Below are positions 1,793 through 28,451 of a stretch of 32,816 bases of DNA, piece after piece. This stretch comes from Verrucomicrobiota bacterium. GTDB lineage: Bacteria > Verrucomicrobiota > Verrucomicrobiia > Limisphaerales > JAKPVM01. A program made the position numbers and the translations under genes. Under the pieces are notes generated by a model. That model saw only the letters and a program-made list of their open reading frames with translations, searched no databases and was not told the DNA's origin. The stretch's first letter is position 1. Each line of letters starts with the position of its first letter. Where the stretch lies: contig JAKPVM010000022.1 of assembly GCA_029572555.1 (NCBI GenBank), positions 1-32,816 on the forward strand, given 5' to 3'.

Positions 1793-3538
1793 TTATTTCT
1801 TCAATTGTATAGAATCCAATGTCAACAGAAACTCCACATTATTGTGCGTCTTTTTGAGTTTTCCAAGTAGAAGTTCCATCGCTTCTACTGCTGGGACGCC
1901 GGTGAGAGCCCTACGCAAGACAACTATTCTCTGATACTCATCGGGATGATAAAGCAATTCTTCTTTTCTTGTACCGGATAATTCAATATTAATTGATGGG
2001 AATATTCTGCGGTCAACAAGATGTCTATCAAGATGAATTTCCATATTACCCGTGCCTTTAAATTCCTCAAAAATAACTTCATCCATTCGCGAACCGGTAT
2101 CAATCAACGCAGTTGCAATAATTGTCAAAGAGCCACCCTCTTCAATATTACGAGCAGCACCAAAGAACCGTTTTGGCTTATGCAATGCGCTTGCATCAAC
2201 ACCGCCAGACAGGATTTTTCCAGAATGCGGTTGTATAGTATTGTATGCGCGGGCAAGCCTTGTGATAGAATCAAGTAATATGACAACATCCCTTTTCCGT
2301 TCAACCATTCGCCTTGCTTTTTCAATAACCATTTCGGCAACAGCAACATGGCGGTCAGGCGGTTCATCAAATGTAGAACTTATAACTTCCGCGCCTTTGC
2401 AAGTCCGTTCCATATCGGTGACCTCTTCTGGACGCTCATCAATCAATAGAATAAATAGGTAAACTTCCGGATTATTTTTCAAAATTGCATTTGCAATATT
2501 TTGTAAAAGGACAGTTTTACCAGTACGCGGAGGGGCAACTATCAAACCACGCGTTCCTTTACCAATCGGACAAACTAAATCAACCACGCGTGTCGATAAT
2601 TCATCAGCCGTTGTTTCAAGTATAAAACGTTTATTCGGAAAAAGTGGCGTTAAATTGTCAAAATGTGTTTTATCCTTTGCTTTTTCGGGGTCTTCGCGAT
2701 CAACGGCTTCTACTTTTAACAAGGCAAAGAACCGCTCCTTTTCTTTTGGCGGTCTTATTTGCCCCGCGACTATGTTGCCGGTTTGTAAATCAAATTTTCT
2801 AATTTGAGACGGCGACACATAAATATCTTCTGGACAGGGCAAGTAATTAAAACTACGGGATCTTAAAAAACCAAAACCGTCCGGCAAAACTTCAAGAACC
2901 CCTTCTGAAAATAATACGCCGATTCGTTCAGCGTTCTTGCTTAATATTTGATAAATCAGCTCGTGTTTCCGCATTGTCCCAAAGTTTTCAATACACATTT
3001 CACGAGCAATTTGATTAAGTTCGCTCATTGCCATTGACTGAAGCTGCGTAATATTAATAGGTTTTTGCGGCTCCTTATTAACTTCCATTTCTGGTTCAGA
3101 AGGTTTTACTGATTCTTCTTTTGCAACTGGAACTTCGTCAATTGGCGGTTCAGTTTTTGCAGTTTCTTCAACCTGTTCTTTTATTTCAGCAATAGATGGT
3201 TGTGTATCTTTCGCTGGTTCTTGAACAGGCGGTTGTATCACTTTTAATTCTAATTCAGAAGACTTTGCAGTTTGTTCAATCGGTTCGGGTTCTTGTTTCT
3301 GAGAGGATTTGGTCTTCTTTGTCTTTGCACCCTTTTTCTTCGGCTTCGGTTTCTCTTCAACTTCAGCGGAATCAGAGTTAGGCTTATCTACTTCAGAAAT
3401 GGTCTCCTGATTCTTCGGTTCAGATGAAACGGCGCTCTCACTCTGTTGTTCAGTGGAAGTTAATTCCAATTGAGAAGAACCATCTTTTAACTGTTCATTA
3501 ACAGTTTTTGACTTTTGAGATTTTGACACTCTTGGCAT
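1793..3538 (-). CDS. rho: Transcription termination factor Rho with long low-complexity N-terminal extension
   Basis: Rho core: [29 protein letters not shown]-like region, Walker A '[15 protein letters not shown]', '[13 protein letters not shown]', '[62 protein letters not shown]'. Confidence 0.95.
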
Positions 3539-3660: not shown

Positions 3661-5814
3661 CTAATATGGCAGTGGGAATTTACTTGTCAACTCTTTAACA
3701 TTAATACGCACTTTATTCTGAATGTCAAGATTTTTTATATCAGATAAAACTTCGGTTATCATATTAGCGATAAGAACCATCTCGGCTTCTTTCATACCGC
3801 GGGTTGTAACCGCAGGCGTCCCTATCCTGATGCCACTCGCCTGGAATGGTGAGCGCGTTTCAAATGGTATAGTGTTTTTATTGACCGTGATTCCTGCTCC
3901 GTCTAATGCCAATTGACAATCTTTTCCAGTCAATCCACGCATACCGACGTCCACAAGCATTAGGTGATTGTCCGTCCCACCGCTTACTAAACGGAATCCA
4001 TTTTCCATCAGCCTATTAGCAAGAGTTTTGGCGTTCTTAACAATTTGTTCTTGATAAACTTTAAATTCCGGTTGCATCGCTTCATTAAAACAAACCGCCT
4101 TTGCTGCAATAACATGCATCAGCGGTCCGCCTTGAATTCCGGGAAATGTTTGCGAGTCAATTTCTTTTGCATATTTTTCCTTGCATAAAATTAATCCGCC
4201 GCGTGGTCCGCGTAAGGTCTTGTGGGTAGTAGTTGTTACAAAATCGGCAAACGGCACAGGGCTTGGATGCAATCCTGCCACGACTAAACCGGCTATATGT
4301 GCGATATCTGCAAGGAGATATGCGCCAACTTCTTGGGCAATTTGCGACATTTTTTCAAAATCAATAATTCTTGGATACGCGCTTGCGCCAACGGTAATCA
4401 TCTTTGGTTTATGTTCTCGGGCTAATTTTGCCAGTTGTTCATAATCAATCCGTTCGTCTTCTTTGCTAACTCCATAATGAACCACATCAAAAAACCTGCC
4501 TGAAAAGTTCGCCTTATTACCGTGGGTAAGATGTCCACCGTGCGTTAAATCCATTGTCAACAATTTATCGCCCGGCTTTAAAACAGCGAAATAAACAGCC
4601 ATATTTGCGCCACTGCCTGAGTGTGGCTGTACATTTGCGTGTTCAGCGTTGAACAATCTTTTTGCCCTATCTATTGCAAGTTGCTCAGCTACATCGACAT
4701 TTTCACAGCCACCATACCAACGTTTTTTAGGGTAGCCTTCTGCATATTTATTGGTCAAAACTGAACCTTGCGCCTGCATTACGGCTGGGCTTGTGAAATT
4801 TTCGCTGGCTATAAGTTCAATATTTTCTTGCTGTCGTTTTATCTCGTTTTGAATTGCTTTACTAATTTCTGGGTCAATCGCTTCAAGCGATAAATCAGGC
4901 TGCAAAGCTGACGGAATTTTTTCAATTCGTCTTAAATGCCTCCCGCCTTCGAACTTTGTGTTTAAAAAAGCCTCTATCATTTTAATCGCTGTCGCTGCAT
5001 CGGTATATTTGCCTGCAAAACAAAGAACATTTGCATTATTATGAGACCTTGCTTTAGCGGCCATTTCTTCGTTCAAAACAAGAGCAGCTCTGACAGCGGG
5101 AATTTTATTTGCTGTAATGCTCATTCCGATACCGGTGGTACACACCAAAATACCCAGACCATAATCCTTCCTTGCGATAGCTCGTGATAATGCGATTGCG
5201 ATATCAGGATAATCGCAAGAGACATCAGAATTTGTGCCAAAATCGGCAACTTCGATTCCATTGCCCCGCAAATACGCTTTAATTTTTTCCTTAAGTTCAA
5301 AACCGCCGTGGTCGGCGCCAATAGCTATTGAGTTATTATTCATTGCCTCGATAAGTTTAATATTTGATTGTTGTTCAATAAATTCCACAATTGATTCAAT
5401 CCCTTTCAAAATTGTATCTCTGCATTCTTCATAAACTTCTAATGATGAACCAATTGGATCGGGTATATCATTGTCTTTATCATCAGTAAATTCCATCAAT
5501 AAAAATGTCTTTTCCACAACCTCCGGATACATAGAAACTACTGTTTCTAAATGCCCACGCGTCATACAAAATATATAGTCTGCTTTTTTTACTAAATCTT
5601 TCGTAAGAGACTGACTGCGAAAGCTCGTGATATCAATTCCCATCTCTTTCATCGCATCAACAGCATTCTGGCTTGGTGGTTGACCATCCGCAGTGCAAAT
5701 CCCTGCGGACATCGCCTTATAGTCTTCCCTACCTTGTGTAATGTGTCTGAACAGGGCTTCAGCCATCGGGCTTCTACACACATTACCAGTGCATATAAAA
5801 AGCAGAGTCTTCAT
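3661..5814 (-). CDS. glyA: Three-domain fusion: low-molecular-weight protein phosphatase (YwlE/arginine phosphatase-like) + ribose-5-phosphate isomerase B + serine hydroxymethyltransferase
   Basis: N-terminus [15 protein letters not shown] and [15 protein letters not shown] (LMW-PTP); middle [40 protein letters not shown] (RpiB); C-terminus [58 protein letters not shown] (SHMT). ORF track is open to 5832; [11 protein letters not shown] start at 5814 preferred because promoter-like boxes overlap 5832. Confidence 0.93.
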
Positions 5815-5832
5815 TAAATAAACCCGTGTCAA

Positions 5833-5882: not shown

Positions 5883-5910
5883 TTGACATTTAAATAACTT
5901 ATGAGAAAAT
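5883..5910 (+). promoter_or_regulatory. Candidate promoter for SUMF1/FG-GAP gene (TTGACA - 16 nt - GAAAAT)
   Basis: Perfect TTGACA at 5883-5888, weak -10; would place true start at ATG 5952 rather than 5901. Confidence 0.3.
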
Positions 5911-5951
5911 CTTTCTCCAATTTGAAAATTAATAGCGTCAAATATATTAAT

Positions 5952-8108
5952 ATGAAATATTTAAAGATAATATCGGCTACAATTGCAATAGGAATTAATA
6001 TTGCGAGTGGGGCAAATCTTATTCCATTTGTCTATGATACTGAAAAAGAATTAACTGCGACTGGCGGGGATTTTGATGGAAATGGTCTGGCAGATTTGCT
6101 TCTTGTGGATAAAGGAAGCGGTAAATACAGGATTGCTTACCAATTCACTCAAGGAGAATTTACATGGGTTAACCACAGAGTAAGCGGGGTAAAAGATGTC
6201 TCCGGTGTTGGTTTAGGAAAACTTTTTTCCACCGACAAAGATGGCATCGCAATGACAGCCGCTGATGCTAATCAAATTGTTGTTGTCTCGGCTGAAAGCA
6301 CAACCTCTGCATCAACACCGATACCCATTCCACCACCTGTTTTAGGCCCAAATGTAATTCTTCCTGTTAGTATCGGTGGTGAGGGTAAAAGCCAGTTATA
6401 TGACCTTTATCTTGGAAGTATCTATAATGACCCAGATCCTTATAAAGTAACGTGTTTCCGAAATAAAAATGGGAAATTTGAAAAATTTTATGAGACAAAA
6501 GTCCCCGGTGCACCAGGTAAACCAAATAGAATTCAACTTAAAAAAAGCGGAAAAGAATTCGTTTCTGTTCTTTCGTCGGATGACAAAGGCGACACATTAC
6601 GAGTGGAAAACCTTGATTCAGGCAAGATTGTTGTCATAGGACAATTAACCGGGTTAACAGCAGGAAGCGACTATACGGCAGGATATTTTAGCGGCGGCGA
6701 AAATTGCGAATTCATCTTCTACAACCCCGGTTCCAATTTTATCAAATATGTCCAATTGAGCGACGTTCAAAACGACCGGGTTAAATTTGCTAATCCCGTT
6801 ACATATCAATTAGATTCGCCAATATTTAAGGTATATACTGTTCAGGCTGACAACACTGCAAAACTCCTTGTTATCTCTGGAAAAGGCGAGAAGGCTGGTA
6901 TTTATGATTTTAATGGGAAACAAGCGCCATCTTTAATTAGTTCAATTACTCCGCCTGAAAAAATGTTTTATATGGGCGCAATACCTTTCACTGGCGGATT
7001 CCACATATTACTCTCATCGGGCGTAGGTAAATTCTCAATGGAATTCAAAGATTATCGTATAAGCGGCAATAAAGTAACGGATTTCAAATCAGGTCAACTC
7101 CCGAGTATGGATGACACTGATGAATTTACAATACCACTTATTCATAAACAGATACTTGCCAGCCTTGCCGAAAAAGCCGAAACCGATATGAAGCCTTATA
7201 CAAACACAATCCCCGGTTCAGGCGTAACCTATGCTATGGTACCAATACCCGGTGGAGAATTTTTAATGGGTAGTCCTACAACTGAAAAAGGGCACAAACC
7301 GGATGAAGAACCACAACATCGCGTTAAAATTTCACCGTTCTGGATGGGTAGGTTTGAAGTTACCTGGAATGAATATGAATTATTTATGTACCCGGATGAC
7401 GAAAAGAAATTGCGCACACAATATCCTTCAAATCCTGAGGTAGATAAACTTTCAGATGCTATTACCAGACCTTCAAAACCTTATGTTGAAATGAGCTTTG
7501 GTATGGGCAAAGATGGTTATCCAGCTATCGCTATGACACAGCATGCCGCAAATAAATATTGTCAATGGCTCAGTGCAAAAACAGGTCATTTCTACAGATT
7601 ACCAACAGAAGCAGAATGGGAATATGCCTGCAGAGCAGGAACAAAAACCGCTTACTTCTTTGGTGAAGACCCCACACAACTCAATGATTGTGCATGGACT
7701 GGGCAGAACAGCGACTTCAAATACCATAAAGTCGGCGAGAAAAAACCAAATCCATGGGGGCTTTACGATATATTAGGCAATGTTCTTGAATTTTGTTTAG
7801 ACCAGTATGACCCAAATTATTACAAGACTTGCGGTGAATTTATTGTTGACCCCTGGAATAAAGCCACTAAACCATACCCACATTCAGTCAGAGGCGGTTC
7901 GTGGGACGATGAAGATGTCGCATTATTTAGAAGCGCTGCAAGACGGTTCTCTGATAGATCATGGAAAGCAACCGACCCACAATTGCCAAAAAGCCACTGG
8001 TATTTCTCTGATGTTCAGTGGTGCGGTTTCCGTTTGGTAAGACCGCTTAAAGTTCCACCACCAGAAGACCTCGCTAAATATTGGATTAGCGGCGTCGAAA
8101 AAGATTAA
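5952..8108 (+). CDS. Secreted protein: N-terminal FG-GAP/VCBS-like region + C-terminal SUMF1 (formylglycine-generating-enzyme-like) domain
   Basis: Signal peptide MKYLKIISATIAIGINIASGA; 'GGDFDGNGLADLLLVDKGSGKY' FG-GAP motif; 'MVPIPGGEFLMGSP...EEPQHRVKISPFWMGRFEVTWNEY', 'YRLPTEAEWEYACRAGT', 'NPWGLYDILGNVLEFCLDQY', 'SVRGGSWDDE', 'CGFRLVRP' SUMF1 motifs. ORF track starts at 5901. Confidence 0.88.
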   Translation: MKYLKIISATIAIGINIASGANLIPFVYDTEKELTATGGDFDGNGLADLLLVDKGSGKYRIAYQFTQGEFTWVNHRVSGVKDVSGVGLGKLFSTDKDGIAMTAADANQIVVVSAESTTSASTPIPIPPPVLGPNVILPVSIGGEGKSQLYDLYLGSIYNDPDPYKVTCFRNKNGKFEKFYETKVPGAPGKPNRIQLKKSGKEFVSVLSSDDKGDTLRVENLDSGKIVVIGQLTGLTAGSDYTAGYFSGGENCEFIFYNPGSNFIKYVQLSDVQNDRVKFANPVTYQLDSPIFKVYTVQADNTAKLLVISGKGEKAGIYDFNGKQAPSLISSITPPEKMFYMGAIPFTGGFHILLSSGVGKFSMEFKDYRISGNKVTDFKSGQLPSMDDTDEFTIPLIHKQILASLAEKAETDMKPYTNTIPGSGVTYAMVPIPGGEFLMGSPTTEKGHKPDEEPQHRVKISPFWMGRFEVTWNEYELFMYPDDEKKLRTQYPSNPEVDKLSDAITRPSKPYVEMSFGMGKDGYPAIAMTQHAANKYCQWLSAKTGHFYRLPTEAEWEYACRAGTKTAYFFGEDPTQLNDCAWTGQNSDFKYHKVGEKKPNPWGLYDILGNVLEFCLDQYDPNYYKTCGEFIVDPWNKATKPYPHSVRGGSWDDEDVALFRSAARRFSDRSWKATDPQLPKSHWYFSDVQWCGFRLVRPLKVPPPEDLAKYWISGVEKD

Positions 8109-22402: not shown

Positions 22403-23671
22403 ATGAAAGTCCATATCGCTTATGGTGAAAGCAGTCTTGAAATTAAATTGCCTGAAAATATAACGACTGTAATTGAGCCGAAATACAAACAGGGAATTGA
22501 AGACGAAAAAGCCGTTCTGTGGCATTCTCTTAATAAACCGATTGAAGCACTAACTTTAAGGAATTGGTTTAATGGTAAATCTAAAATATGTATAACATTC
22601 ACGGATATAACCCGCCCAACCCCTAACATCAGACTTATTCCTTGGCTCCTTGAATACTTATCTTTTGTTCCTAAAAAAAATATAACACTATTAAATTCTT
22701 TAGGTTCTCACAGACCAAACAGTCTAAAAGAATTAGAAAAAATGTTAACCTCAGAAGTTACAAAACAATACAGAATAGTCCACAATGACCCGGAAAATAA
22801 AGAGTCTCATATAAAGGTAGGTTCTCTTAAAGATAATACACCAGCGTTGATTTCACACCATCTTGTTGAAGCAGATGTAAAGATTATTACTGGATTTATT
22901 GAACCACACTTTTTCGCCGGATTCAGCGGAGGTCCCAAAGGCATACTGCCCGGCACAGCATATCTTGATTCAATAATGGCAAATCATCGCTCTGAGAATA
23001 TCGCTCATCCAAATGCCACATTTGGAATTACTGAAGGTAATCCAATCTGGGAAGAGATGAGAGATATTGCATTGAAAATTGGGCCAGCGTTTTTAATTAA
23101 TGTTACTCTCAACAATGAAAGAAAAATTACCGGCGTCTTTGCCGGCGATATAATTAAGGCTCATAAAAAAGGGACTGAATTTGTTAAAGCCAATGCTATG
23201 CAACAGGTGAAGGAAAAGTTTGATATCGTGATAACAACGAACAGCGGATACCCGTTAGATTTGAACTTGTATCAAGGCGTAAAGGGAATGAGCGCAGCAG
23301 CAAAAATTGTCAAAAAAGGCGGTGTAATAATTCTTGCTTGTGAATGCAGAGAGGGCATCCCATTTAATAGTTCTTATGAAAAATTGCTCCATAGCGGAAA
23401 TAGTCCGGATAATTTGCTTCAAAAGATTTCAGAATCAGGACGCGTAGTCCCCGACCAATGGCAAGTTCAAATTCAGGCGCAAATACAAAAAAACGCCACT
23501 GTTTATCTTTACAGTGCTTTGCCAGACGACGCAGTAAAATCTGCGCACCTTATTCCAACCAAAAATATTGAAAAGACTGTTTCAGAAATAATTTCAGAGC
23601 GAGGTGGTAATGCAAAAATAGCCGTTTTACCGCAAGGACCTCTCACAATTCCATACCTTGCAGAATCTTAA
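22403..23671 (+). CDS. larA: Nickel-dependent lactate racemase (LarA-like)
   Basis: 'ITFTDITRPTPN', 'LNSLGSHRPNS', 'IVHNDPEN', 'GFIEPHFFAGFSGGPKGILPG', 'ITTNSGYPLDLNLYQGVKGMSAAAKIVKKGGVIILACECREG'. Confidence 0.88.
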   Translation: MKVHIAYGESSLEIKLPENITTVIEPKYKQGIEDEKAVLWHSLNKPIEALTLRNWFNGKSKICITFTDITRPTPNIRLIPWLLEYLSFVPKKNITLLNSLGSHRPNSLKELEKMLTSEVTKQYRIVHNDPENKESHIKVGSLKDNTPALISHHLVEADVKIITGFIEPHFFAGFSGGPKGILPGTAYLDSIMANHRSENIAHPNATFGITEGNPIWEEMRDIALKIGPAFLINVTLNNERKITGVFAGDIIKAHKKGTEFVKANAMQQVKEKFDIVITTNSGYPLDLNLYQGVKGMSAAAKIVKKGGVIILACECREGIPFNSSYEKLLHSGNSPDNLLQKISESGRVVPDQWQVQIQAQIQKNATVYLYSALPDDAVKSAHLIPTKNIEKTVSEIISERGGNAKIAVLPQGPLTIPYLAES

Positions 23672-26874: not shown

Positions 26875-27945
26875 CTATTTCGTTATCGGACCTTTAATGT
26901 CTTTCAATCTTTCACGAATAATATCAGCCCTGACAATGTCCCTTTCTTCTGGTTCGTTTGTATTTGGATACAATTTTTGCAAATGAGCTGGTTGGCAAAT
27001 CAAAAATAATTCATCGGACAGTGCTCGTATCGTATTAGGAAAAAAACCATAATCAATTCCAAGTCTGAACAATGATAATAAGTTCATTGCCTCTTTTGAA
27101 GACATACTATATGCATTTGCAAGGATACCGTAAGCCCTGCCGATGTGGTTCAACACTGCTGTCTTTTGTTTTTCCAATAAAAGTGTCCTTGCGTTACTTT
27201 CATGTTCAACAATTTGAGCGACTACTTTTTGAAGCCTCTCCAAAATTTGCAGTTCTTCCTCACCAAGAGTTTGTTGGTTTGAAACCTGAAAAAAATTTCC
27301 TAAGGCGTCCGTTCCTTCACCATAAAGTCCTCTTACAGCAAGCCCAAGTTTATTAACAGCCTGTATTATTTGATTAATTTGCTCTGCTAAAACAATGCCG
27401 GGTAAATGCAACATTGCGCTAACCCTTATACCAGTTCCCACATTTGTTGGACAAGCAGTTAAATAACCGAGTTTTGATGAAAACGCATAATCAAGTTGTT
27501 TTTCTAAAAGGGTATCAACCTCATCAATTTTATTAAAAGCACTTTCAAGCTGAAAACCGGGCAACAATGCCTGCATTCTGAGATGATCTTCTTCATTAAT
27601 CATTATACTAAAAATCTCACCTTTGCTCATCACAACGGCACTTCCAGCAGATTTTACAGCATGCTCTCGACTAATAAGATGCCGTTCAATAAGTAATTGT
27701 TTATCAAGCGGACTCAACTCATCCATTATTGTGGAAAATCCATCTTTCATTTGAGGAAGATTTTCAACAGCAGGCCTCATCAAATCCATAGCCCTTATTC
27801 TGTCCTGTTTTGTCGCCCAACCGGGGAATGAAATATTTTTCAAATTCCTCGCTAACCTAACCCTGCTTGATATAACAATGGTGTCGTCCGGACCTTCTCG
27901 TTTTGCAATCTCAGGAGATGGCGTAAGAAAATCTAATAAATTCAT
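26875..27945 (-). CDS. mcsB: Protein arginine kinase McsB (ATP:guanido phosphotransferase family)
   Basis: 'TIVISSRVRLARNLKNISFPGWA', 'IMINEEDHLRMQALLPGFQLESAF', 'GYLTACPTNVGTGIRVSAMLHLPG', 'VRGLYGEGTDALGNFFQVSNQQTLG', C-terminal 'RDIVRADIIRERL'. Confidence 0.95.
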   Translation of the reverse strand: MNLLDFLTPSPEIAKREGPDDTIVISSRVRLARNLKNISFPGWATKQDRIRAMDLMRPAVENLPQMKDGFSTIMDELSPLDKQLLIERHLISREHAVKSAGSAVVMSKGEIFSIMINEEDHLRMQALLPGFQLESAFNKIDEVDTLLEKQLDYAFSSKLGYLTACPTNVGTGIRVSAMLHLPGIVLAEQINQIIQAVNKLGLAVRGLYGEGTDALGNFFQVSNQQTLGEEELQILERLQKVVAQIVEHESNARTLLLEKQKTAVLNHIGRAYGILANAYSMSSKEAMNLLSLFRLGIDYGFFPNTIRALSDELFLICQPAHLQKLYPNTNEPEERDIVRADIIRERLKDIKGPITK

Positions 27946-28451
27946 AATTTTTTATCTTCAGATTCATTTAACTTTACCCTGATCCTTTTTATTTCATCGC
28001 GTAGAACTGCGGCGCGTTCAAAGTCTTCTATTGCCACGGCGTGTTCTAATTCCTCTTGCAATTTTCTAATTTTTTCTGCCACTGTTTTGCCACTGTGCTG
28101 AGCATTCGGGATTTTTCCTACATGACGAACCCCTTTGTGCATAGATTTTAAGATACCTTCAAGCATATCAGCGAATGTATTATAACATTCAGGGCAACCC
28201 AATCTTCCGGATTTTTTCAAATGTGATAGTGTATAACCACAGACAGGACACTTTAACTCTTCAACCTCTGGTTCGTCAGAAGGTTGAGAAACATCAAGAC
28301 CGAGCAAAAAATCAGTAACATCAATTGAACCATCAGCCAACCCTTGTTTTTTTGCGCAATCTTCGCAAAGGTCAATTTTATGAACCTTTTCACCTACAAT
28401 TTTTGTAAAATGTAAAGTTGCCCGTTTCTGCTTACATATATTACAAAGCAT
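27942..28451 (-). CDS. mcsA: McsA-type zinc-finger / UVR-motif activator of McsB
   Basis: Two CxxC pairs ('MLCNICKQKRATLHF...LCEDCAKKQG', 'LKCPVCGYTLSHLKKSGRLGCPECYNTF') and C-terminal UVR motif; 4-nt overlap with mcsB. Confidence 0.93.
   Translation of the reverse strand: MLCNICKQKRATLHFTKIVGEKVHKIDLCEDCAKKQGLADGSIDVTDFLLGLDVSQPSDEPEVEELKCPVCGYTLSHLKKSGRLGCPECYNTFADMLEGILKSMHKGVRHVGKIPNAQHSGKTVAEKIRKLQEELEHAVAIEDFERAAVLRDEIKRIRVKLNESEDKKL

Follow-up and report, generated by a model that had tools for sequence, protein, structure and literature searches.

The minus-strand frame at 3661-5832 of the window, the whole 32,816-nucleotide stretch of DNA that was analysed, encodes an LMW phosphatase (L), an RpiB (R) and an SHMT (S) domain within one open frame. 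The protein probably represents an LMW phosphatase-rpiB-glyA housekeeping operon that was collapsed by fusion, leaving three independently acting enzymes on one polypeptide. As judged from related loci, the fusion turns out to be an inherited trait of much of Verrucomicrobiota. The triple architecture itself is not new and has been known since 2008, when the three-domain protein Minf_1669 was described in Methylacidiphilum infernorum V4, a member of the same phylum (PMC2474590). What is new concerns the fused RpiB: 29 of the 42 genomes in which it is intact showed no other ribose-5-phosphate isomerase, so that it is often the sole one found; in several lineages it has lost its catalytic residues, and in others it has been deleted. 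Below, a hyphen joins fused domains and a bar (/) divides separate genes.

The uninterrupted three-enzyme frame of 723 codons described in the initial annotation was confirmed, that number counting from the in-frame TTG at 5832 which opens the frame. The ATG at 5814 is the more likely start, as it fits the homologues better, and gives a protein of 717 residues ending at the stop at 3661 (3661-5814, minus strand, as delimited by ORF, Pfam and relatives). Residue numbers count from this ATG, and all features below lie on the minus strand. The L domain occupies residues 5-138 (5401-5802; Pfam LMWPc, E 2.7e-33) and displays the C(X)4CR(S/T) P-loop and DP general acid of the LMW protein-tyrosine-phosphatase superfamily. 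The P-loop itself, CTGNVCRS, spans residues 8-15 (5770-5793) and places Val12 at position PX5. The R domain covers residues 163-300 (4915-5328; Pfam LacAB_rpiB, E 3.2e-54), scores 159 bits against a cut-off of 138.65 for the RpiB equivalog TIGR01120, and carries the Cys66-type active site together with all ten checked active-site residues. The S domain, residues 310-686 (3757-4887; Pfam SHMT, E 5.4e-169), reaches 650 bits in its NCBIfam match against a cut-off of 335; it belongs to PF00464 by score, by its PLP lysine, Lys532, and by its Asp, His and Arg active-site residues. Thus, L, R and S follow one another in a single open frame, as in Minf_1669, and the catalytic residues originally assigned to all three enzymes are present. 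Among 138 aligned fusion proteins, the P-loop Cys and Arg, the DP acid and the SHMT catalytic residues are near-invariant, and the RpiB catalytic residues are kept in about 128. Linker lengths are fairly constant among the fusion proteins. In the predicted structure L and R are confident and S is moderately confident, while the L-R linker, residues 151-160 (5335-5364), is disordered and flexible (pLDDT about 38). A fold search with the whole predicted model returned SHMT structures in all of its best 50 matches and added nothing to the sequence result.

The linker includes the methionine at 5343 from which internal initiation of an RpiB-GlyA product had been contemplated. This methionine is present but is residue 158 from the ATG rather than 164. 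Initiation there is unsupported and was rejected, since Met158 is unconserved and the preceding GAGG stands too near to it (about 2 nt). Consensus promoters and terminators flanking the fusion gene were not above chance.

Proteins combining the three domains were found throughout the order and across the phylum. The titles of the best 80 matches of a contig scan are mostly Verrucomicrobiota, with some MAGs under other names; among the matches listed, one MAG labelled Kiritimatiellia has all three domains fused, and another, labelled Lentisphaerae, has L/R-S. Across class and phylum the locus takes the forms L-R-S, L/R-S, L/R/S, L-S, L/S, R-S and S alone, and wherever the parts adjoin in Verrucomicrobiota the order L, R, S is constant. 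This constant order, together with unfused, partly fused and fully fused states, fits a stepwise fusion of an operon with losses in places. The proposal that a syntenic block had merged into a single polypeptide was accordingly upheld by relatives with three genes, with L/R-S and with L-R-S in the same order. The R-S and L-S double fusions of other Verrucomicrobiota have homologous domains and usually occupy the same locus, but in contrast to the window protein they lack one of the three domains. Direct L-S fusions without RpiB occur at loci L171, L172, L203, L207, L208, L211-L215, L217 and L219, and in such fusions R is fully removable, with only a short linker remaining between L and S. The same enzymes in the same order make up the Bacillus subtilis block, which we take to run ywlE - rpiB (ywlF) - ywlG - glyA; there they are separate genes, whereas here they are fused without ywlG.

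Downstream on the same strand the fusion gene is followed by the gene for the Rho transcription terminator (1793-3538, minus strand, profile match), which adjoins the fusion in 80 of the loci compared. About 160 residues precede the recognised N-terminal domain of this Rho. Elsewhere in the window, 5901-8108 encodes a large protein whose C-terminal domain belongs to the FGE-sulfatase (formylglycine-generating enzyme-like) type, and 22403-23671 encodes a LarA-like nickel-dependent lactate racemase scoring above the family cut-off. One SHMT was found in 72 of the 73 genomes searched. No second SHMT and no other RpiB or RpiA was found in the window's genome, whose 83% completeness means that such missing copies are not proof of absence.

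Among solved structures, the L domain is best matched by 4egs and by those of YwlE (4pic and 4kk3). At PX5 of the P-loop, Thr confers phosphoarginine activity and Ile phosphotyrosine activity (PMC8001253). The YwlE/PtpB arginine phosphatases are thus among the closest solved relatives of L, and McsB is also encoded in this genome; they carry Thr at PX5, however, whereas the window L has Val12 and is fused to metabolic enzymes. The designation YwlE-like therefore holds by overall sequence but fails at the arginine-specificity residue. Among the loci compared, PX5 is mostly Ile or Val and rarely Thr in fused L copies, and mostly Thr in separate L genes; this association of fusion with loss of Thr is strong in the raw counts (Fisher 4e-9) but not significant after correction for descent, few contrasts being independent. 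In a pattern search the Thr-type P-loop usually lay in the L gene of the locus, and elsewhere in the genome in G090, G301 and G206. As a second LMW-PTP in the window's genome (G000), the sole other match was rejected as ArsC-like (CTGNSCRS).

The window itself contains a candidate cognate kinase. McsB, a protein-arginine kinase and possible partner of the L domain, is encoded at 26875-27945, directly preceded by an McsA-like protein with a UVR motif at 27942-28451 (both minus strand, profile matches). Of 80 Verrucomicrobiota genomes searched, 79 have exactly one McsB; the search (PF00217) gave no match in any control genome, even B. subtilis, and is possibly insensitive, although its positives are strong. 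McsB might phosphorylate arginines of SHMT or RpiB and the fused L reverse this in cis, so that one-carbon and pentose metabolism would respond to protein stress. The near-universal kinase, the presence of McsB and McsA in the window, the status of L as the only LMW-PTP found in G000 and the retention of the L-S fusion in lineages whose R has decayed or disappeared speak for such regulation. It is nevertheless unlikely, as the Thr that marks arginine phosphatases is replaced by Val here, most fused copies having either Ile or Val, and fusion by itself is no demonstration of regulation. A bolder form, which we consider distinctly improbable, holds that an arginine quality-control phosphatase has been built into SHMT and RpiB phylum-wide, controlling or sensing them in cis, with its specificity residue changed along with the fusion.

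The three domains differ in how well they are kept. All ten checked active-site residues are retained in 202 of 225 RpiB sequences, and several are lost in about 20. In the degenerate members, identity of R falls to 29%, against 61% for L and 71% for S, although the degenerate R domain still folds according to structure prediction; in some lineages R is deleted and L is joined straight to S. The tie that had been suggested between a regulatory phosphatase and pentose-phosphate and one-carbon enzymes is weakened by this decay and deletion of RpiB in several lineages while L and S remain fused. The persistence of the L-S pair after R loss (L-S and L-r-S lineages) hints at a functional link between L and S.

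RpiB and RpiA were searched in 75 genomes, and the locus was scored in 71 of them. Where R was intact, 29 genomes, the window's genome among them, showed no further Rpi and 13 had another; degenerate or absent R occurred without another Rpi in none and with another RpiB or RpiA in 29. This association (Fisher 4e-10, raw) rests on three well-supported independent tree contrasts, and is therefore not a phylogenetically corrected result, nor is it significant phylogenetically. Within the order, none of 18 genomes searched has an RpiA and 15 of the 18 have a single RpiB. The separate RpiBs that were read in genomes with degenerate R or L-S mostly display a GGSGNGE active site, the rest being variants, and G526 and G315 have an RpiA in place of a separate RpiB.

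The decayed copies also bear on a possible scaffold role, in which RpiB would be retained in part for spacing or dimerisation and so place the phosphatase beside SHMT, whatever its isomerase activity. Such a role would account for the roughly 20 loci in which R has lost catalytic residues but persists in the gene and retains a predicted fold, and for its divergence relative to L and S in these members. It is very doubtful, because most lineages keep every R active-site residue, R is often the only Rpi found, and the domain can vanish entirely and leave a short linker; its retention may be merely slow decay.

The same comparison alters the interpretation of Minf_1669, for which a link between the serine and pentose-phosphate pathways was proposed in 2008 (PMC2474590). 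In the M. infernorum copy (taken as G473) eight of the ten RpiB active-site residues are lost, the signature reading DRSGDELPSN against the intact DHCGGHNRHR, whereas the window RpiB is intact. G473 has a second, separate RpiB, and in the closely related G099 and G129 the active site of the separate RpiB is intact. Since all 29 genomes scored with a degenerate or absent R carry another RpiB or RpiA, a serine/pentose-phosphate link through the fused RpiB domain of the Methylacidiphilum protein appears unlikely. The 2008 inference is thus corrected: the fused RpiB is degenerate in the very organism where the fusion was first reported. In the single-contig genome G209, which is closely related to the Methylacidiphilum-like genomes, the degenerate RpiB is split by a frame change (locus L206), yielding two overlapping ORFs, L-r' and r''-S.

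The fusion is found in one frame in 54 of 58 same-order genomes (one genome per family), with about 65-71% identity, which bears out the expected single-frame continuity in related genomes. Three of the exceptions, G036, G024 and G010, are truncated by contig ends, and in G010 and G024 the SHMT part is also interrupted by a stop codon; in G032, the sole non-truncated exception, the phosphatase is encoded by an overlapping gene of its own. An assembly or frameshift artefact uniting separate genes, which a fragmented draft source genome in 356 contigs might suggest, is refuted by the conservation of the frame across these independently assembled genomes and by its presence in genomes assembled as a single contig, for example G323.

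The reading that best accommodates these observations is that of a fused housekeeping operon. Gene fusion in Verrucomicrobiota would have turned the LMW phosphatase/rpiB/glyA operon into one three-enzyme chain whose flexibly linked domains fold and function independently of one another, with co-expression and stoichiometry presumably fixed by the fusion. S would supply glycine and one-carbon units, R would interconvert ribose-5-phosphate and ribulose-5-phosphate, and L would dephosphorylate proteins; most likely it opposes the arginine kinase McsB or, in view of the Val at PX5, it may instead act on phosphotyrosine. Substrate channelling is not expected, since the three reactions have no common intermediate. 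The fairly constant linker lengths and the persistence of the fusion across many families could, on the other hand, mean that the domains do interact. The locus offers a clear series from gene fusion through domain decay to domain loss, and annotation of such proteins as plain SHMT or RpiB misses what may be the cell's only isomerase or phosphatase.
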